Source: a virus. Taken from it: a stretch of DNA of 64,000 nucleotides. A program made the position numbers and the translations under genes. The notes beneath the pieces are model-generated. The model was not told the origin of the DNA, did no database searches, and was given only the letters and a program-made list of their open reading frames with translations. This document shows, piece after piece, positions 6,546-40,681 of this stretch. How positions within the stretch are numbered: the first letter of the stretch is position 1; the number at the start of each line of letters is the position of its first letter. The stretch covers positions 1-64,000 of IMG/VR virus record IMGVR_UViG_3300021077_000136, one strand, 5' to 3'.

Positions 6546-7979
6546 TTATTCTATAACGTTTGCTTTATCAGCAACCCATTGCAAAGTGAACTCATCCTTA
6601 ATTGAACTCATTAACATAGCATATACAGCTGGATTATTAAAAACTTGTTCCGGGTTTCCACCTTGAGCTTGGATATTATTTGCAATAGCATTCCTAGCCT
6701 CAACTTCATTTAGAACAGAGTCTGGCTCGCTTTCACGAACCGAATCCAAAATCAAAGATAAACGAGAATTCTTTTCTCCTTGATCAAGATACTTCTTCTT
6801 ATCTTCATCCGAAGCTGTATCAAACGAGATACCAGACTTGGAAGCAATATACTTTGCCTCTCCTTCGATAATGAATTTTGGAATTTCGAACTTGTTGTTC
6901 TCTAATAGCTTTGTGGCCACCTGACCACGAATAGCTTCTTGCTTACTGCGCACCAACGAAGCCCTTGAAATAGCTCGTAGTTTTTCCATTAGCTCTTCAA
7001 TATTTTGAAGACCCATCATTTGATAAAACTCATCATTTATCTGATGAGGCTTGCGCTTTGTTCCCATATGAACAGTTATAGAGAACTTTGCAGTTTTCCC
7101 AGACAAAGCGCCATCTTCAAACTTGAAATCGAATTCGCGAGTCTCGTCAGCTTTCATTCCCAATATGTTTTGATCAAAGCCAGTCCAGCGATTTGATCCA
7201 ACCGTATACATCTCTCCTTCTACGGTATTTCCATCAAATGGTTCACCATCAATCGTGGCTACGAAAGAAAAGGTAATCTGGTCACCAACCTCGACCAAAT
7301 CATTCTCTTCATATGGCTCTGCTTCGCCAAGACGAAGACGAAGATCGTATAGAGACTTCTCTACCAATCCCTCCTCATTAAGCACCTCAACTGGCTTTGA
7401 AACATCAAACTTGATATCACCTAGAGTAAATTCAGGTTTCTTATGCAAATCAACTTTACAAGAGAAATTGTTCTTTGAAATTTTTACATCGCCAAATGAT
7501 GGCTGTCCAATAGGTTTGATGTTAAGTTCGAAGATGATATCGTCAATTGCATGAGTTGCCATCTCTCGCACAACAAACTGATTAATTTGCGGCCTAAGCC
7601 TGACCTTGATGGCTTGATCGGGAGCTTTGCCGGGTCGGAAGCCTGGCACTCGAAGCTTGCGGCATTCGGCCACTGCCTCATCAATCTTGCCAATTACAAC
7701 TTCAGGATCAGCTTCGTAGTGAACCTTTAGCTTGCAATATTCCGGTTCCTCAAGAATCTTCACGATCGGGTATTTTACTTCTCCAGGAAGACTAAGTTCT
7801 TCTGCACTCCAACTCTTGCCGGCAACATCAATCTCTTTTGGATAATTTGACTCACTAGAATCCTTATCCGCTTTTCTGGCAATTCCCTGATAAGGAATAT
7901 TATCAGTGATAGGAACTAAGCCAGTGGTGGCCCCCACGGATCTGCCCTTATTAATAACAACTTTTTCTGAATCTTGCAT
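6546..7979 (-). CDS. tig: Trigger factor-like ribosome-associated chaperone
   Basis: A protein of about 477 residues with trigger factor architecture. The ribosome-docking signature appears as VPGFRPGKAP near residues 111-120. A peptidyl-prolyl isomerase-like FKBP segment follows (VGDQITFSF, later FDQNILGM), then a long helical substrate-binding C-terminal domain. Trigger factor sits at the ribosome exit tunnel and assists nascent chains. About 70 extra residues precede the usual N-terminal domain. The first ATG (7988) overlaps the upstream stop; the ATG at 7979 is preferred because the SD AAGGA lies about 10 bases upstream of it. With deformylase, IF-3 and bS21 homologues nearby, it fits a translation-takeover gene set. 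Confidence 0.9.
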   Translation of the reverse strand: MQDSEKVVINKGRSVGATTGLVPITDNIPYQGIARKADKDSSESNYPKEIDVAGKSWSAEELSLPGEVKYPIVKILEEPEYCKLKVHYEADPEVVIGKIDEAVAECRKLRVPGFRPGKAPDQAIKVRLRPQINQFVVREMATHAIDDIIFELNIKPIGQPSFGDVKISKNNFSCKVDLHKKPEFTLGDIKFDVSKPVEVLNEEGLVEKSLYDLRLRLGEAEPYEENDLVEVGDQITFSFVATIDGEPFDGNTVEGEMYTVGSNRWTGFDQNILGMKADETREFDFKFEDGALSGKTAKFSITVHMGTKRKPHQINDEFYQMMGLQNIEELMEKLRAISRASLVRSKQEAIRGQVATKLLENNKFEIPKFIIEGEAKYIASKSGISFDTASDEDKKKYLDQGEKNSRLSLILDSVRESEPDSVLNEVEARNAIANNIQAQGGNPEQVFNNPAVYAMLMSSIKDEFTLQWVADKANVIE

Positions 7980-7981
7980 AA

Positions 7982-8818
7982 TTACCATTTCCTTATTCCG
8001 ACCATCGGCTTCTTCTTTTCTAAAACACCCTTTTTGGTCAAATAATCTTTACCAGATTTACAATGATCTAAATAATCACAGTATTTACATAGGAACTGCG
8101 GATTTGGTCTCCACAATTTCTCTTCTTCGATATTGGACGCAGCCTTCATAAACTTCTCGCCCACAGAAATTACTTCTTCTCTGGTAAACTCCTGTGTAAG
8201 ATAATCAAAGTTATGTCGCAATAGAATGAATGAAGCCCTAATTCTTTTTATTGATTCATTCTCAAGACATAATGCATAACAATATGTCATTACCTGAAAG
8301 AAGTCTCTCAAATACTTTGGATTTTTAGTTGTCTTGTAGTCAGCGACATGAAGAAGTCCATCTGGATCTAATTGGACTCTGTCAATAAATCCATTCAACA
8401 GAACCTTATTATTCAGATTTATATAAAATGGCTTTTCAACATCAAGTACGTTCGGGAGGCCCTCCTCTTTCAATATGGCCTTATATTCCTCTACGATTTC
8501 ACGAGCCTCCTTGTACTGAAGCCCGGTCATCTGATTCTCATATTCAGCGTAGGCTGACTCCCACGCAGCGTCCATTACAGGAAGCCAATCCTCTCGCTTC
8601 GAAGGATCTTCAATAAGCGCACGATGGAAGTTCTCCAAAACTTGATGGAGATACTTTCCGAATATATGAAAATCTCGCTCTATCCTTGGTAGTTTGTCTA
8701 TGTAGCAGAATTTGAATTTTGCTTTGCAGTCCTCAAAAGTTTTGGTTTTGCTGACAGATAAGCTTAAGTCTGTATTGCTCTCATCTTTGAAAGATAAGAG
8801 ACACGCTGTAACTAACAT
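7982..8818 (-). CDS. RecB/Cas4-like PD-(D/E)XK nuclease with probable Fe-S cluster
   Basis: A 278-residue nuclease of the PDDEXK_1 / Cas4 / RecB-C type. Visible features are an early helical segment with cysteines (DCKAKFKFC), a GFIDRV motif, then ADYKT carrying the catalytic D-x-K pair, a following Q near FFQVMTYCYAL, and a C-terminal C-x2-C-x5-C cluster (CKYCDYLDHC). The N- and C-terminal cysteines together look like the four ligands of a 4Fe-4S cluster. Such enzymes trim DNA ends in recombination and repair. Its stop overlaps the first trigger factor ATG. Confidence 0.85.
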   Translation of the reverse strand: MLVTACLLSFKDESNTDLSLSVSKTKTFEDCKAKFKFCYIDKLPRIERDFHIFGKYLHQVLENFHRALIEDPSKREDWLPVMDAAWESAYAEYENQMTGLQYKEAREIVEEYKAILKEEGLPNVLDVEKPFYINLNNKVLLNGFIDRVQLDPDGLLHVADYKTTKNPKYLRDFFQVMTYCYALCLENESIKRIRASFILLRHNFDYLTQEFTREEVISVGEKFMKAASNIEEEKLWRPNPQFLCKYCDYLDHCKSGKDYLTKKGVLEKKKPMVGIRKW

Positions 8819-20287: not shown

Positions 20288-20722
20288 TTACTTAGCAATG
20301 GCAACGTCAGGAAGAAGTATACCGTTGAGATGATCTATTTCATGCTGAATTATCACTGCCACAAACCCGGTGGCTACGAACCTATACGGCTGTACCAGGT
20401 TCCCCTCGACGACAATCTCTTTGTACCTAAGAGTTCTCTCATACCTATCAGGGAAACTCAAACAGCCCTCTCCATCAAATTCGAATTGATAATCAAAAGA
20501 TATTATCTTAGCATTTACCAAATCTAGTTTGATATCATCAACACGGACAATTGCCATTTGTTTGGCAACTCCAACCTGAGGACAGGCTAGCCCAATGCCA
20601 GGACGGCCATTCTTTTCAGACCACTTCAATGCATTCTCAAGTTTTGACCTTAGATAATCTACCTCGGATGATAATACAGGTTCACATTCCACCCTCAGTA
20701 AACTTTCATTAGTAATAATCAT
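20288..20722 (-). CDS. def: Peptide deformylase
   Basis: About 144 residues with all three family motifs: GIGLACPQVG, EGCLSFP and QHEIDHLNG. The cysteine and two histidines bind the metal; the glutamate is catalytic. It removes formyl groups from new N termini. The ATG at 20722 overlaps the stop of the tiny membrane peptide gene (ATGA); an upstream TTG at 20728 is less likely. Phage deformylases are usually shorter than host forms, lacking the C-terminal helix, and this one is also compact. Confidence 0.93.
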   Translation of the reverse strand: MIITNESLLRVECEPVLSSEVDYLRSKLENALKWSEKNGRPGIGLACPQVGVAKQMAIVRVDDIKLDLVNAKIISFDYQFEFDGEGCLSFPDRYERTLRYKEIVVEGNLVQPYRFVATGFVAVIIQHEIDHLNGILLPDVAIAK

Positions 20723-20844
20723 CGCCAATTCCAGATTGCTATCGCAGTTATTATAAGTAATAGACCAGAAAAATCTAATGGCGGAACTAAAGCCAAAAGA
20801 AATATCATAATAGCAAATGTTTCTCTAAGTGCTATCTTATTCAT
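20719..20844 (-). CDS. Tiny hydrophobic membrane peptide, 41 aa
   Basis: A short frame between IF-3 and deformylase. The start is ATG 20844, three bases past the infC stop; the TGA overlaps the deformylase ATG. The product is almost all hydrophobic, with two runs (AIMIFLLALVPPL, then LLLIITAIAIW) around a Pro-Pro turn, so one or two membrane spans are likely. Function is unknown; inner-membrane or lysis-related roles are possible but unsupported. Coupled starts on both sides argue that it is real. Confidence 0.6.
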   Translation of the reverse strand: MNKIALRETFAIMIFLLALVPPLDFSGLLLIITAIAIWNWR

Positions 20845-20847
20845 AAA

Positions 20848-21420
20848 CTACATTCCGGCTCTGGCCTCTTGTTGCTTTTGTTCACCCTTGAATAAAACCA
20901 CAGTCATATTACGTCCAGTAACAGTTGGATCGCTTTCGTACTGAGCAGAAATCAGTTGAGCAAACTTCTTCATAGTTTCTGCCCCAATGTCACGATGGGC
21001 CATCTCTCGGCCTCTGAATTGTACTGTTACCTTGAGACGATTACCATCTTCAATAAACTCTTTGAGCTGACGGGCTTTAACCTCTAAATCATGCTCACCA
21101 GTACTGGGGCGCAATCTAACCTCTTTTATTTGGATTACGTTATCGCGCTGCTTCTTCTTGGTAACCTTTTCTCTCTTCTCTTGTTCGAATTTGTACTTAC
21201 CAAAATCAAGTATCTTGCAAGTGGAAGGTTTCCCGTTTTTACCCTGTGATACCATTACAAGCTCTAGACCTGAACTGTGAGCCATCCGTAAAGCTTCTTG
21301 AGTATCAATGACACCAATGTTATTATTATCCTGGTCTATACAAACTACCTTTGCTTCTCTAATAAAACGGCCAAAGACATATCGGTGATCAGTTCTGGGT
21401 TGTGGTCTGGAATATCTCAA
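20848..21420 (-). CDS. infC: Translation initiation factor IF-3
   Basis: A 190-residue IF-3 with both domains. The N-terminal domain has the VVCIDQDNNNIGVIDTQEA region and GKPSTCKILDFGKYKFEQ; after a lysine-rich linker, the C-terminal domain has KEVRLRPSTGEHDL and LKVTVQFRGREM. IF-3 binds the 30S subunit, keeps it free of 50S and checks initiator tRNA and start codon. The start is TTG, supported by the SD AGGAG six bases upstream. A phage IF-3 could shift start-site choice toward phage messages. It lies with deformylase in one operon. Confidence 0.95.
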   Translation of the reverse strand: MRYSRPQPRTDHRYVFGRFIREAKVVCIDQDNNNIGVIDTQEALRMAHSSGLELVMVSQGKNGKPSTCKILDFGKYKFEQEKREKVTKKKQRDNVIQIKEVRLRPSTGEHDLEVKARQLKEFIEDGNRLKVTVQFRGREMAHRDIGAETMKKFAQLISAQYESDPTVTGRNMTVVLFKGEQKQQEARAGM

Positions 21421-30465: not shown

Positions 30466-31500
30466 TTACTCCCCTAGAATGATTCCAAAATCAATCTTGA
30501 TTCTTTTTATTAACTGAATCCTATCAATTTCCAAATTCTCATTCAGAAGAAGATCACTAATAAAATCGCGAACAGTTCCGGCATCCTCTTCTATGTTGAC
30601 AAGCTTTCCATCCACAATGACTGCATAGTGTCCTTCGGGAATGGCTGCCGGACATGCAGGTTCCGCAGCAACTTCCTCAGAATCACTCTGATCCTCTTCT
30701 TGAACTTCTTCTTCATCTTCGTCATCATCCTCATCAGGCGGTGGTCTGACAATTTGCGCCATTTCCTCTGGCCACTCAGTAATCTGACTATCTTCCTCAG
30801 CCTCAGACGTCAGCTCAAATTCCTTACCACCAATCTCAAGATCTAACTCTGAATACATATTGCTGACTAATTCGCCAATTACAACCTTATCAACCTTTAA
30901 TGTATCCAATTGTTTTACGATATCAGTAAATATACCCTTGGGTCCGAATGTATTCTCGCGAAGATTTTTTAGCTCTTGAAGATCTGTAATTTCAGATAAT
31001 TCTGCAACTACTAAACTCTTTACGTGTTGTAATCTTTTGGTAAAGAACTTAATTGATTCGGCCGTCTTTGGATTTTTCATATCAGCTAACGGATTAATAC
31101 CCTGCAACTTCTCAATATCAACCTCTTCATTATTGTCGATAATTCCGGTTACCTTATCATCATACCAGGCATGTTCAACATTACCAACAGATACAAAGTT
31201 ATTCTTTGGTGGAATAAACTTATCATCGTCATCAGCAGACTTCTTGATTTGTTTTCTGAATGTAGGCTTAGTGGGATTGGTTGACGTAGCTGGCGAGGCT
31301 TTAACAACTACCGGCTCTCCACTAATCTCCCTAGTAGAAGGAATATTGCGTCTCTTCTCACTTCCAACCTTAGGAAAACCAAACTCATCATGTAGTAATG
31401 GTTGTCCACCAACTTTAGGTTCAATATCAAGCCGCTGATATTCTGGCTGCCGCGTCTTAGCTTCTAGCATCCGCTTTACGGAATCTTTTTCATCGGTCAT
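30466..31500 (-). CDS. Acidic hypothetical protein, 344 aa
   Basis: A low-complexity, very acidic segment (DEDDDEDEEEVQEE region) lies near residues 250-275. The N terminus is disordered and basic and the middle is helical. It overlaps the bS21-like gene by 4 bp. It could be a scaffold or a DNA-mimic style protein; neither is shown. Confidence 0.55.
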   Translation of the reverse strand: MTDEKDSVKRMLEAKTRQPEYQRLDIEPKVGGQPLLHDEFGFPKVGSEKRRNIPSTREISGEPVVVKASPATSTNPTKPTFRKQIKKSADDDDKFIPPKNNFVSVGNVEHAWYDDKVTGIIDNNEEVDIEKLQGINPLADMKNPKTAESIKFFTKRLQHVKSLVVAELSEITDLQELKNLRENTFGPKGIFTDIVKQLDTLKVDKVVIGELVSNMYSELDLEIGGKEFELTSEAEEDSQITEWPEEMAQIVRPPPDEDDDEDEEEVQEEDQSDSEEVAAEPACPAAIPEGHYAVIVDGKLVNIEEDAGTVRDFISDLLLNENLEIDRIQLIKRIKIDFGIILGE

Positions 31501-31823
31501 ACCAGCACCTCAGATCTCTTTTCATCTCGGCTAATCTGCTTCTGTGACTTGACCTTCTGACGTCGATCCCATTCACCAGTCTTCACTAGATTTTCTCTAA
31601 TCTGCGTCATCACCCTCCGATCAACTGCTTCTCGGCGCTTACGACGCTTCTTCATGCTCGGCTTCTCAAAAGCCATGCGCTCTTTGATTTGCCCAACTAC
31701 GCGTTCCCTTTGAAATAATGCCTTGAACTTACGGAAGGCATATTCAAAATCCTCTCTTGAGGACCCCTCCACAGTAACCTCAATAGGTCGAACCCAGTTA
31801 GGATCTAAAATACTTCCTCTCAT
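31497..31823 (-). CDS. rpsU: Ribosomal protein bS21 homologue
   Basis: 108 residues. The first 60 follow the bS21 pattern: IEVTVEGSS, then DFEYAFRKFKALFQRERVVGQIKERM in two helices, then FEKPSMKKRRKRREA. Host bS21 is about 70 residues and sits near the mRNA 3' anti-SD end of the 30S platform. This copy has a short N-terminal extension and a long basic C-terminal tail. Phage-encoded bS21 is known in other large phages and is thought to replace host bS21 to favour phage mRNAs; that role is inferred here. It overlaps the AAA ATPase gene by 4 bp. Confidence 0.85.
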   Translation of the reverse strand: MRGSILDPNWVRPIEVTVEGSSREDFEYAFRKFKALFQRERVVGQIKERMAFEKPSMKKRRKRREAVDRRVMTQIRENLVKTGEWDRRQKVKSQKQISRDEKRSEVLV

Positions 31824-37088: not shown

Positions 37089-38336
37089 ATGAGCGATTTC
37101 ACTCTCTCCGATGATCAGGGATCTGCATACGAAACAATGGCCAAGTGGCTGGCCGGTGGAGGTAAGGTCCACCCAAAGCAAACGAACCCTAGCCTGCTTA
37201 GTCTTGGTGGTTATGCTGGCTCTGGAAAATCAACTTTAGTTTCCGTTCTAGCCAAACAATTTGGCACTTCGATTCGTTTTGCCTTCTGCGCGCTATCTGG
37301 AAGGGCCGCCTCAATATTGGGTACCAAGCTTCGAGCTCAAGGAATCACCTTTGGAGATGGCGGTCACTATTGCGGAACCATTCATCGTCTCATATACAAA
37401 CCAATTGAAGATGAGACAGGAGAGGTAGTCTTCTGGGCAAAGAACCCAAAACTAGATTTCGATGTAATAATACTTGATGAAGCTTCAATGATATCAGCAG
37501 ATATTTTCAGAGATCTTTCTTCATACGGTATAGACATCCTCGCGGTTGGTGATCATGGACAACTTCCACCAATCGAAGGTAGATTTTCATTGATGCAGGA
37601 GCCTATTCTGCGTCTAGATAAGATCCATCGGCAAGCTCAAGACAATCCAATTATCAATTTATCGATGGTGATTAGAGAAACTGGTAAAATACCAAAGTCA
37701 TTAGCTGATAATAAACATATATCAATCGTACCAAAGTCTGAATCAGTGGATTTCCTACGTCAAGTATATAAGGGGAAACAAGATCCTGAGGATATACTTG
37801 ATTCAGCCGTACTCTGCTATAAGAATGCTACAAGAGTAATGCTTAATACAATGATTAGGAATGTTGTATTTGGTAATATAAGCAAGATTCCACTATCAAA
37901 TGACCTAGTTATATGTCTAAGAAACGTTACAAATAAAAATTCAAAGGAACCACCTATGTACAATGGGTACCGTGGATACTTTGAATCGGGGGTTACTAAA
38001 ATAGACAATGATTTCTGGTCAGCTAAAATCAACTTCCCATATGAAGGAATAAAGGTAAAGGTCAATAATATTTGCAAACATCAATTTGGATTCCAGAAAA
38101 CATTCAGTTCATTTGAAGAACTGGCACAGTTCGGAATGGAAGTTAATCATTGGAATGATGTTGGACTACTATTTGACTATGGATACGCCCTTACTGTCCA
38201 CAAAATGCAAGGCAGCCAGGTCGGAAACGTCATTTTATTCAACGAAAGACCAGCTCCAGTTAGCGAGGACAACTATCGCCGTTGGCTTTACACCGCTGTG
38301 ACCCGCAGTACCGACAAACTAACAATCATCCCTTGA
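37089..38336 (+). CDS. SF1 helicase, Dda/RecD-like
   Basis: 415 residues, the first plus-strand gene. Motifs: Walker A GGYAGSGKST (40-49), ILDEASM with the DExx box, VGDHGQLPPI (motif III), and C-terminal YALTVHKMQGSQ with YTAVTRSTDKL (motifs V/VI). Dda-type enzymes move 5' to 3' and push proteins off DNA during replication start. Length is close to T4 Dda (439). The SD is weak (GAGA about ten bases upstream). Its stop contains the -35 box of the promoter for the next gene. Confidence 0.92.
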   Translation: MSDFTLSDDQGSAYETMAKWLAGGGKVHPKQTNPSLLSLGGYAGSGKSTLVSVLAKQFGTSIRFAFCALSGRAASILGTKLRAQGITFGDGGHYCGTIHRLIYKPIEDETGEVVFWAKNPKLDFDVIILDEASMISADIFRDLSSYGIDILAVGDHGQLPPIEGRFSLMQEPILRLDKIHRQAQDNPIINLSMVIRETGKIPKSLADNKHISIVPKSESVDFLRQVYKGKQDPEDILDSAVLCYKNATRVMLNTMIRNVVFGNISKIPLSNDLVICLRNVTNKNSKEPPMYNGYRGYFESGVTKIDNDFWSAKINFPYEGIKVKVNNICKHQFGFQKTFSSFEELAQFGMEVNHWNDVGLLFDYGYALTVHKMQGSQVGNVILFNERPAPVSEDNYRRWLYTAVTRSTDKLTIIP

Positions 38337-38360
38337 CAGAAAAAATCGAGTATTTAGATT
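38333..38360 (+). promoter_or_regulatory. Sigma-70-type promoter for the small heat-shock gene
   Basis: A consensus -35 TTGACA (38333-38338), a 16-bp spacer and -10 TAGATT (38355-38360, 4 of 6 matches). The predicted start lies about 32 bp before the ATG. The -35 overlaps the TGA stop of the helicase gene. Confidence 0.65.
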
Positions 38361-38398
38361 GCCTTCTGTTCAGAGAAAGATTTGAACGAGGAGATATT

Positions 38399-38743
38399 AT
38401 GATTAAGAATATTTTTGATGCATTCAATGCCATTGATGAGGCTATTAATGCTGGTGTTGAAAATGTCGTAGCCTTTACACGTAAAGTAAAGGACAACGGA
38501 AATAGTTATTCATTGAAAATTGACCTACCTGGTTTCGAAAAAGATGAAATAGAAATTGATATCATTGAAGATATATTAAACCTAAAAGCAAAAAACGCTG
38601 AGGATAGTAAGTCTTTTTCATTCTATATTCCAAGTGATATCAATAAGGAAGCTGTTGAGGCTTCCTTAAAGAATGGTCAACTTACTATAACTTTACCAAA
38701 GATAGTAAAATCTACAAATACAAAGAAGGTTAGAATTACATAA
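38399..38743 (+). CDS. Small heat-shock protein (Hsp20/alpha-crystallin type)
   Basis: 114 residues. The central domain fits the alpha-crystallin fold: SYSLKIDLPGFEKDEIEIDI, later SFYIPSDINKEAVEASLKNGQLTITLPK. The start is ATG 38399, with the SD GAGGAG just upstream, rather than the longer frame. Hsp20 proteins hold unfolded proteins and prevent aggregation. It has its own promoter and is convergent with the nucleotidyltransferase gene, two bases apart. Confidence 0.88.
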   Translation: MIKNIFDAFNAIDEAINAGVENVVAFTRKVKDNGNSYSLKIDLPGFEKDEIEIDIIEDILNLKAKNAEDSKSFSFYIPSDINKEAVEASLKNGQLTITLPKIVKSTNTKKVRIT

Positions 38744-38744
38744 A

Positions 38745-39842
38745 CTACCAAGAAGCTTCAACCATTTGAATACTTAACTCGCTTATCTTCTTCATATTTG
38801 GAGTATTTGGGAGTGGTGATGATGCATAAAGAGTATCAATCTCTTTAGTTTGTTTATCAAACCACTCCATTAACTCAAAGAATGTCCATGCACCATTACG
38901 AATAGACAGAAGCTCTTCTGCATCTGGCCTACGTACACGCATAATACCATCAGTCATTAATTCCTTGCAGCATCTAGAGAGGCGCACAAGGTGCATGGCA
39001 TGCTTACAATCGAAACCAAACTTAGCCTCTAGCTCTGCGCGAGCTGGGTTTCTATTCTTCTCCCAATCATTGAAGTGCTGCCAATCCCGCAGGCGGTTAG
39101 TATACAGCCTTTCCTTATCTAGGAATTCAATAAAGTTAGTTGAGAAACCAAGACTGTTAGCTGCAGCCAACCAAATCTTATCATCCACCTCCTCCACGCT
39201 CCAATTGGTAATCTCAGTAATACGACGTAGGAATTCATCCTGTATTTCTTGACGTACAGATGGCGTTAGACTCTCCATCTCATGCCAATTCCACTCATCA
39301 CAGCGCCTTTTGACAGCTGCATTGGCAGCCATAATCTGATCGGTTGGGATGACAGTCCTAGAAGGCAATCCAAATTCCTCCCGAGTAGGCTGATGAGTTA
39401 TGGGGTTTAATAACCACCGCCGATGAGTAAGAATTCTCTTCATCTGAGCATTAGCATATCCTTGGAAGGTAAACTTAACTCTCTTAGATAGAAAAAACTT
39501 CCTGCTATCAAGTAGCATTTGTCCTATTTTAGATACGTGGAAATGGTCCTGCTCATCAGTAAATATGATTTCAAGAGCATTTGGATTACATTCCGATGCC
39601 AACTTGAGGAACTTGCGCAATTCAAATATAACCAAATCAGGATCTTTAGAGGTGGCTTGTTCGAAGTTATTGGTCATTCCTAAGTAGTATTCCTTAGGAG
39701 CAATTGCAATACCACGAATATCCAAATCACTAGCTGGAGTTGATGTGCCATAGCACTGACTCCCGTGCCGTGTAAGATAGATAGTTCTTTCCCTAAGCCA
39801 ATCAAGATTACCTATATATGTAGACCAATCAAAATCTAACAT
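38745..39842 (-). CDS. RlaP-like nucleotidyltransferase
   Basis: 365 residues with the DNA polymerase beta-like nucleotidyltransferase core: GSQCYGTSTPASDLDIRGIAI near residues 28-48. The rest is helical and matches the predicted nucleotidyltransferase family PF10127 by overall layout. Family members may modify nucleic acids or proteins; phage versions have been suggested in RNA repair. It lies 2 bp upstream of the kinase-bL12 fusion stop, so the pair may act together. Confidence 0.8.
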   Translation of the reverse strand: MLDFDWSTYIGNLDWLRERTIYLTRHGSQCYGTSTPASDLDIRGIAIAPKEYYLGMTNNFEQATSKDPDLVIFELRKFLKLASECNPNALEIIFTDEQDHFHVSKIGQMLLDSRKFFLSKRVKFTFQGYANAQMKRILTHRRWLLNPITHQPTREEFGLPSRTVIPTDQIMAANAAVKRRCDEWNWHEMESLTPSVRQEIQDEFLRRITEITNWSVEEVDDKIWLAAANSLGFSTNFIEFLDKERLYTNRLRDWQHFNDWEKNRNPARAELEAKFGFDCKHAMHLVRLSRCCKELMTDGIMRVRRPDAEELLSIRNGAWTFFELMEWFDKQTKEIDTLYASSPLPNTPNMKKISELSIQMVEASW

Positions 39843-39844
39843 GA

Positions 39845-40636
39845 TTACCTAATTTCTACTTTAGCCCCAATAAACTCCAGCCCCTGTTTGGCAAGATCTG
39901 CATCCCATTTAGATATTCCTGATAGAACATTCTTTGGTGCATTCTCAACCAATTCTTTTGAAGCTGCCAATGACAAATCAGTATTCTCCCTAACCCATCT
40001 AATAACACGAAGTTTATTCATTCCAACTTCGGTAAGAACTACATCGAATTCGGTTTTATCTTCACACCCATACTTTCCATCAGCTGCTAAACATCCGTAT
40101 GCAGGAGCAGCTCCGTAAATTGGAATAACCTTATAATTTACTTCATTTGGTGAACCATCATCGATTGAACCATATACAAATTCAATCGGTGGGAAGTCTT
40201 TAGGCCATACCTCAAACAAGAATTCAAAATTCTTTTGTATCCTATCGTAAGCTGAATCAGGAACATTATGAACATTCCTTGATTTAGCTACATCGATATC
40301 GGTATCCATGCACTTCACTTCAACATCACAACCATATACCTGGGCTATTCTTATATATGGTGAAACATCATGGATTCTAACATTGGTATTATCAACGATA
40401 ACCGTATCTGGTCGTCTTTCAGGATCCCCACTAATAGGTCCAGGTTGGAATACATTTATAAATCTACGTAAACAATCCTCATGCCCCTTGTGAGCTTCTT
40501 CCACACTCCAATGGTAATTCCCATCGGGATCTGTGAAGTAGTTGTCAGATGATACTATAATCTTTGAGCCTTTAATTGCCTTTGCCCACGTACTTTTGCC
40601 TGAGCCTGGCAGGCCCATCATAATAATAACTTTCAT
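39845..40636 (-). CDS. P-loop kinase fused to a ribosomal bL12 C-terminal domain
   Basis: About 263 residues in two parts. Residues 1 to about 150 are an AAA_33/polynucleotide-kinase-like P-loop kinase: GLPGSGKST (8-16), VIVDNTN and a following helical lid. Residues about 192-263 match the L7/L12 C-terminal domain: KTEFDVVL, then KLRVIRWVREN, LVENAP and AKVEIR. The Lys, Ile, Arg and Lys positions that contact EF-Tu and EF-G in bL12 are kept or conservatively changed. The ATG at 40636 is chosen by SD spacing. The bL12 tail suggests delivery to translational GTPases or the ribosome stalk. I know no described fusion of this kind. Confidence 0.85.
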   Translation of the reverse strand: MKVIIMMGLPGSGKSTWAKAIKGSKIIVSSDNYFTDPDGNYHWSVEEAHKGHEDCLRRFINVFQPGPISGDPERRPDTVIVDNTNVRIHDVSPYIRIAQVYGCDVEVKCMDTDIDVAKSRNVHNVPDSAYDRIQKNFEFLFEVWPKDFPPIEFVYGSIDDGSPNEVNYKVIPIYGAAPAYGCLAADGKYGCEDKTEFDVVLTEVGMNKLRVIRWVRENTDLSLAASKELVENAPKNVLSGISKWDADLAKQGLEFIGAKVEIR

Positions 40637-40681
40637 AAACATCCTTCTAGCGACCGCCCGCTAAACCCTTGTCGCTCTTTT

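Follow-up and report, generated by a model that had tools for sequence, protein, structure and literature searches.

The window analysed here, a 64,000-nt stretch of viral DNA, is contained in a 78,051-base IMG/VR virus record and carries on its minus strand a gene in which a P-loop kinase is joined through a linker to the C-terminal domain (CTD) of ribosomal protein bL12 (Table 1). A second in-frame ATG at 40642, 6 nt upstream of the ATG at 40636, gives a mechanical ORF of 265 aa, from which the residue numbers of the fusion protein are counted throughout. An AAGGA motif has the proper spacing for ATG 40636 only and not for ATG 40642, and the homologue on a second contig (described below) begins at the identical MKVIIMM; ATG 40636 was therefore taken as the best start. 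The resulting gene limits were those of an earlier note on this DNA, which had also read the last 70 or so residues as the L7/L12 CTD, the rest as an AAA_33/polynucleotide-kinase-like kinase and the gene directly downstream as RlaP, and all of these assignments were borne out by the searches reported here.

Table 1 Features of the kinase-bL12 CTD locus, translation genes of the same virus, and bL12-CTD-like matches in a huge phage
Feature	Record	Position	Strand	Remarks
Kinase-linker-bL12 CTD gene	Window	39845..40636	minus	263 aa, MKVIIMM start, ATG at 40636
P-loop kinase domain (AAA_33 / N4BP2-PNK-PSTK type)	Window	40175..40636	minus	Residues 3-156 (265-aa numbering)
Walker A motif GLPGSGKST	Window	40589..40615	minus	Residues 10-18; read in the sequence and alignments
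Linker	Window	40055..40174	minus	Residues 157-196; mostly predicted disordered (165-195)
bL12 CTD	Window	39848..40054	minus	Residues 197-265
RlaP RNA-repair nucleotidyltransferase	Window	38745..39842	minus	PF10127, 5.2e-23
Ribosomal protein bS21	Window	31497..31823	minus	
Translation initiation factor IF3	Window	20848..21420	minus	
Peptide deformylase (PDF)	Window	20288..20728	minus	Family search of genome; ORF assigned by motifs
Trigger factor	Window	6546..7988	minus	Family search of genome; ORF assigned by eye
bL12-CTD-like matches	Huge phage G003	70466-70954, 88412-88813, 105195-105551, 108919-109284, 110758-111339, 367645-367878		

Both domains were identified by Pfam, with an AAA_33 match at residues 5-124 (E 6.3e-13) and a Ribosomal_L12 (PF00542) match at residues 199-264 covering 66 of the 67 positions of the profile, with E 8.5e-20 and a score of 71.3 bits where the cut-off is 25.9. 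In PHROGs the protein matched phrog_2071 'ATPase' (8.5e-23) and phrog_505 polynucleotide kinase (1.5e-11), and a PDB phmmer search with it found E. coli L7/L12 (3.3e-15). An AlphaFold2 model built on a 30-row alignment contained two confident domains, with pLDDT values of about 92 for the kinase and about 97 for the CTD, separated by a low-confidence linker mostly below 50 across residues 165-195. The modelled CTD superposed on the E. coli L7/L12 CTD (1ctf) with a Z of 14.5 and an rmsd of 0.9 A over 68 residues at 48% identity. A chance L12 match was ruled out by the Pfam, PDB phmmer and fold-comparison scores.

The bL12 homology was confined to the CTD. NCBIfam TIGR00855 was covered only at positions 45-125 of 125, that is, the CTD without the N-terminal domain, and its score of 68 bits fell below the 84.4 cut-off for real bL12. 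The N-terminal dimerisation and uL10-binding domain of bL12 is absent and the kinase occupies the N-terminus, which rules out an ordinary phage-captured rplL. The fusion consequently cannot stand in for bL12 on uL10, and loss of the stalk-anchoring domain would leave the CTD with its factor-binding role. A ClpS adaptor in place of L12 found no support in the sequence, and ClpS was absent from the fold matches listed for the model, a shared fold still being possible.

We compared CTD positions with those of 80 bacterial bL12 proteins plus that of E. coli. The bL12 CTD binds IF2, EF-Tu, EF-G and RF3 via positively charged helices 4-5 (PMC6753160), and the earlier note had taken the factor-binding positions to be present. 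This was largely so for helix 4, where K65, the hydrophobic residues at 66/68/69, a basic residue at 70 and R73 were kept in both the window fusion and its homologue, but not for the invariant G79, which was lost in both, or for K84, which the window fusion retains and the second lacks. Basic residues of the helix 4-5 segment number five in the window fusion, six in the second and five in E. coli. From these conserved positions we lean towards the view that the CTD of the fusion binds translational GTPases.

The kinase domain was compared with known structures using a profile built from the window kinase together with phage kinases closely related to it. Run against the PDB, this profile matched L-seryl-tRNA(Sec) kinase (PSTK; 1.5e-8), T4 PNK (2.9e-8), C. 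thermocellum Pnkp (2e-7) and mammalian PNKP (1e-4), and bacterial Pnkp1 was also found, so that, judged by sequence, its nearest known counterparts are RNA/tRNA kinases (PSTK and the T4, Clostridium and mammalian PNKs). Fold comparison agreed with these matches (polynucleotide kinase 4gp7, Z 13.8), yet PFKFB and zeta kinases were tied or nearly so, within 1 Z (e.g. PFKFB3). Walker A, D33, D84 (DNTN) and R122 (RNxH) aligned with the T4 PNK motifs, showing the general-base Asp, the second Asp (DxTN) and the lid Arg all to be present; the catalytic roles assigned here to D33, D84 and R122 are those established for T4 PNK. The position of the acceptor-side R38 of T4 PNK is occupied by F in the window kinase and in its nearest relatives (L002, L004, L005 and L006), suggesting that acceptor recognition may differ from that of T4 PNK. 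The motif pattern SxDxFF, DNTN, RNxHGVP is one that we take to be shared with human N4BP2/N4BP2L1. Taken together, the domain is probably a nucleic-acid-end kinase.

The same fusion was present at 63% identity on a second contig, IMGVR 3300037225_000673. The two records agree in gene order for tens of kilobases, and many of their orthologues are 70-95% identical; the fusion holds the only L12 match in the 78-kb record. Between the two proteins the kinase domains were 78.6% identical with a dN/dS of about 0.1, and the faster-evolving CTDs 52.9% identical with a dN/dS of about 0.2, both ratios being rough with synonymous sites near saturation; both domains are under purifying selection. The linker, with about 30 residues predicted to be disordered, differs in length between the homologues. 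An assembly chimera was ruled out by the second syntenic contig with the same fusion together with the purifying selection. The fusion is thus old enough for two virus species to have it in common, and it has been maintained.

We also examined the genes around the kinase and its relatives. The start codon of RlaP lies 2 nt past the stop codon of the kinase, and RlaP is a probable co-translated partner of the fusion. On the second contig an HNH gene lies at the downstream junction of the kinase and the contig ends soon after, and no RlaP adjacency was seen there. A small heat-shock protein (HSP20) gene at 38282-38743 of the window lies between a Dda-like helicase gene and RlaP, on the strand opposite to RlaP. 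An unrelated phage contig of 194 kb (G004) has three consecutive genes on one strand, for IF3, for a free-standing kinase that shares 33% identity with the window kinase across the matched region, and for RlaP. Relatives of the kinase directly follow a T4-type RNA ligase in Pseudomonas phages PAK_P1 and Amme-3 and Vibrio phage 184E37-2, with a phosphoesterase nearby, and in Vibrio phage 11895-B1 a relative precedes a gene annotated as tRNA nucleotidyltransferase; in one sampled Vibrio phage, Kuja, no such neighbour was found.

Further RNA-processing enzymes encoded by the virus of the window include RtcB, KptA and a Thg1-like enzyme. RtcB joins 5'-OH ends, which a 5'-phosphate made by a kinase would block. 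The 78-kb fragment, an incomplete genome, contained no PF09414 or PF09511 match indicative of an ATP-grasp RNA ligase. RtcB (L079:9629-10924; 69628-70923 of the 78-kb record) is 28% identical to its counterpart on the second contig and the genes near it are mostly 73-90% identical between the two contigs, a divergence that probably reflects the replacement of one type of RtcB by a different one. The same virus carries the translation genes of Table 1. Among its other features are an IS605-type pair at 5-1545 of the window, comprising a TnpB-like OrfB and a Y1 transposase family match that probably comes from the adjacent ORF at 1129-1545, and a vWA-domain gene, possibly Ro/TROVE-like (L079:5185-6432; 65184-66431 of the 78-kb record), with a neighbouring ORF at 66314-66643. 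This vWA-domain gene takes the form of two ORFs (415 and 109 aa) in the virus of the window and of a single 619-aa ORF in the second contig.

The distribution of the bL12 CTD in viral proteins was surveyed by scanning IMG/VR for DNA that encodes the bL12 helix 4-5 loop, TGLGLKEAK(D/E). The chance probability of this pattern was estimated to be near 2^-41 per position, so that well under one match was expected. The pattern was found in 71 contigs (L160-L230). Seven of the proteins bearing it were rplL-like and 64 were not, save for a possible chance match (L208) and a few fragments. Clustering of the remainder of each protein after masking of the CTD gave 28 attachment groups including the rplL-like one, that is, about 27 other attachments. 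The largest group, of 24 contigs, has a helical N-terminal domain of unknown kind before a CTD whose best Foldseek match was bL12, though weakly. In the 435-kb genome of huge phage G003 (L074, L075, L076), about six proteins have bL12-CTD-like matches (Table 1), of which the one at 367660-367848 scored below the Pfam cut-off, and one of these proteins has, roughly 0.6 kb away, a free-standing kinase that belongs to the family of the window kinase. A bL12 helix 4-5 hairpin was also found in the C-terminal half of a nucleotidyltransferase-like protein on another contig (L069:1048-1842, contig G030), where the motif GS..DSDxD was read by eye and Pfam gave no support; a second copy of this protein was not found in IMG/VR. 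Tentatively, these observations suggest that the bL12 CTD, often cut to helices 4-5, may be a general address tag on many unrelated large-phage proteins, which would carry them to the translational GTPases and, through these, to the ribosome during translation; the RNA kinase described here would be one example, and the nucleotidyltransferase-like protein and dozens of unknowns elsewhere could be others.

Three roles had been offered for the fusion in the earlier note: phosphorylation of a translation factor, repair of tRNA at the ribosome, and competition with host bL12. RNA repair linked to translation best fitted the relatives of the kinase and the gene context, which is one of RNA repair and translation. 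We hypothesized that the phage protein heals RNA 5' ends as a kinase and is directed to EF-Tu/EF-G/IF2 by its captured bL12 CTD, so that RNA would be repaired at the translation machinery, a reading that we regard as evenly poised between right and wrong. Weighing against it are the F in place of R38, the faster divergence of the CTD and its lost G79 and (in one protein) K84, the lack of an ATP-grasp ligase match in the 78-kb fragment, whose RtcB needs the 5'-OH ends that a kinase would block, and the absence of RlaP beside the fusion on the second contig. Most likely, the kinase would transfer the ATP gamma-phosphate to the 5'-OH, or a similar hydroxyl, of cleaved RNA, a candidate substrate being tRNA cut by host anticodon nucleases. 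The CTD, flexibly tethered as in bL12, would dock onto translational GTPases (EF-Tu, EF-G, IF2, RF3) and so raise the local amount of kinase around tRNA ternary complexes and ribosomes that have stalled, and RlaP, the product of the next cistron, may restore lost nucleotides ahead of ligation. Jumbo phages have been described as countering the cleavage of tRNA at the ribosome with RlaP and PNK (PMC7824862). If our hypothesis holds, an RNA-repair enzyme is tethered to the translation GTPases by a stolen piece of the ribosome, which would explain how a phage could find and mend tRNA cut there by host defences. It would also lend a specific and testable meaning to the numerous hairpins of bL12 type in phage proteins that have no assigned function.

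That neither homologue has G79, that one of them lacks K84 and that the CTD diverges faster would also be expected of a domain that has ceased to bind translation factors and been repurposed as a generic protein-protein module, for instance for self-association or for binding a phage partner. In Bacteroidetes, vWA conflict proteins carry inserted domains of the L12/ClpS type, for which no ribosome role is shown (PMC7159879). We consider such repurposing unlikely, as both homologues retain the factor-binding positions of helix 4, the sequence is clearly that of L12 rather than ClpS, and the genome holds many genes for translation and RNA repair.

Alternatively, the CTD could present a bound GTPase to the kinase, which would phosphorylate either that factor or the nucleotide or tRNA that it carries and so redirect host translation. 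The GTPases bound by the bL12 CTD (PMC6753160), the phosphorylation of translation factors by kinases of T7-like phages (PMC6375957) and the presence in this virus of its own IF3, bS21 and PDF are consistent with such an activity. Beyond the CTD, nothing in the fusion itself pointed to it: the kinase domain falls in the PNK/PSTK/AAA_33 group of nucleic-acid kinases and not in a protein-kinase family, and its relatives adjoin RNA-repair genes, making modification of a factor decidedly unlikely. As for competition with host bL12, replacement at the stalk fails with the missing uL10-binding domain, and titration of translational GTPases off host bL12 and the ribosome by the CTD, with the kinase as carrier or separate actor, is very unlikely: the CTD is complete, predicted to be well folded and free of a stalk-binding domain, and such CTDs occur on unrelated partners in many phages, but a decoy would need high expression and no catalytic partner, whereas the fusion has an intact P-loop kinase whose conservation exceeds that of the CTD, and the virus itself relies on translation and encodes translation helpers.

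We return to the proposed translation-addressed RNA kinase and to how it compares with known systems. Pattern scans of IMG/VR, whose reach is close relatives, yielded the second contig as the only further kinase-CTD fusion, and none of 50,697 phage records covered 80% of the fusion protein. Among annotated phages and plasmids no fusion was found, the CTD matches being mostly bacterial rplL-like with a few phage proteins. No fusion occurred among the 80 best CTD matches in bacteria, which were ORFs of ordinary rplL appearance, and a first bacterial genome scan confirmed no relative. A literature search found no report of a kinase-L12 fusion, the nearest being that of Mizuno et al. 2019 (PMC6375957). 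The presence of bL12 CTDs inside phage proteins is thus already known, and apart from the second contig the kinase fusion turned up in none of the records searched.

Mizuno et al. describe bL12 domains in phage proteins, often within larger polypeptides and with homologues that lack the domain (PMC6375957). Those proteins resemble the fusion in having the CTD embedded in a larger protein, domain-free homologues and mostly conserved factor-binding residues; they differ in that no kinase partner is mentioned in the text searched, and the CTD of the fusion is nearer to bacterial bL12 (50-61% identity for the best matches) than the 28-47% given in their Table 1. Huge phages encode L7/L12, IF3, S21 and PDF (Al-Shayeb et al. 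2020, PMC7162821), with L7/L12 given there as a ribosomal protein, whereas in the fusion it is the tail of a kinase. Bacterial bL12 (L7/L12) itself has the complete CTD with the same fold and a flexible linker before it, but has the N-terminal dimerisation and uL10-binding domain where the fusion has its kinase.

On the kinase side, the phrog_2071 'ATPase'/AAA_33 kinases of PAK_P1, Amme-3 and Vibrio phage 184E37 are homologous short kinases that likewise lie in an RNA-repair neighbourhood. Unlike the fusion they are free-standing, lack an L12 domain and have a degenerate RNxH lid, and their partner gene is a T4-type (ATP-grasp) RNA ligase where that of the fusion is RlaP. T4 PseT, bacterial Pnkp and human N4BP2 belong to the same P-loop kinase superfamily; compared with these, the fusion has no phosphatase, SMR or CUE domain and no equivalent of R38, and its targeting domain is the bL12 CTD. 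Human N4BP2, which contains a PNK domain and is a homologue of the ribosome-stalling endonuclease Cue2, resembles the fusion in joining a PNK domain to a module acting at stalled ribosomes (PMC6598757). If the proposed function is correct, N4BP2, with its PNK domain and ribosome-stalling module, would be an independent parallel to the phage protein.
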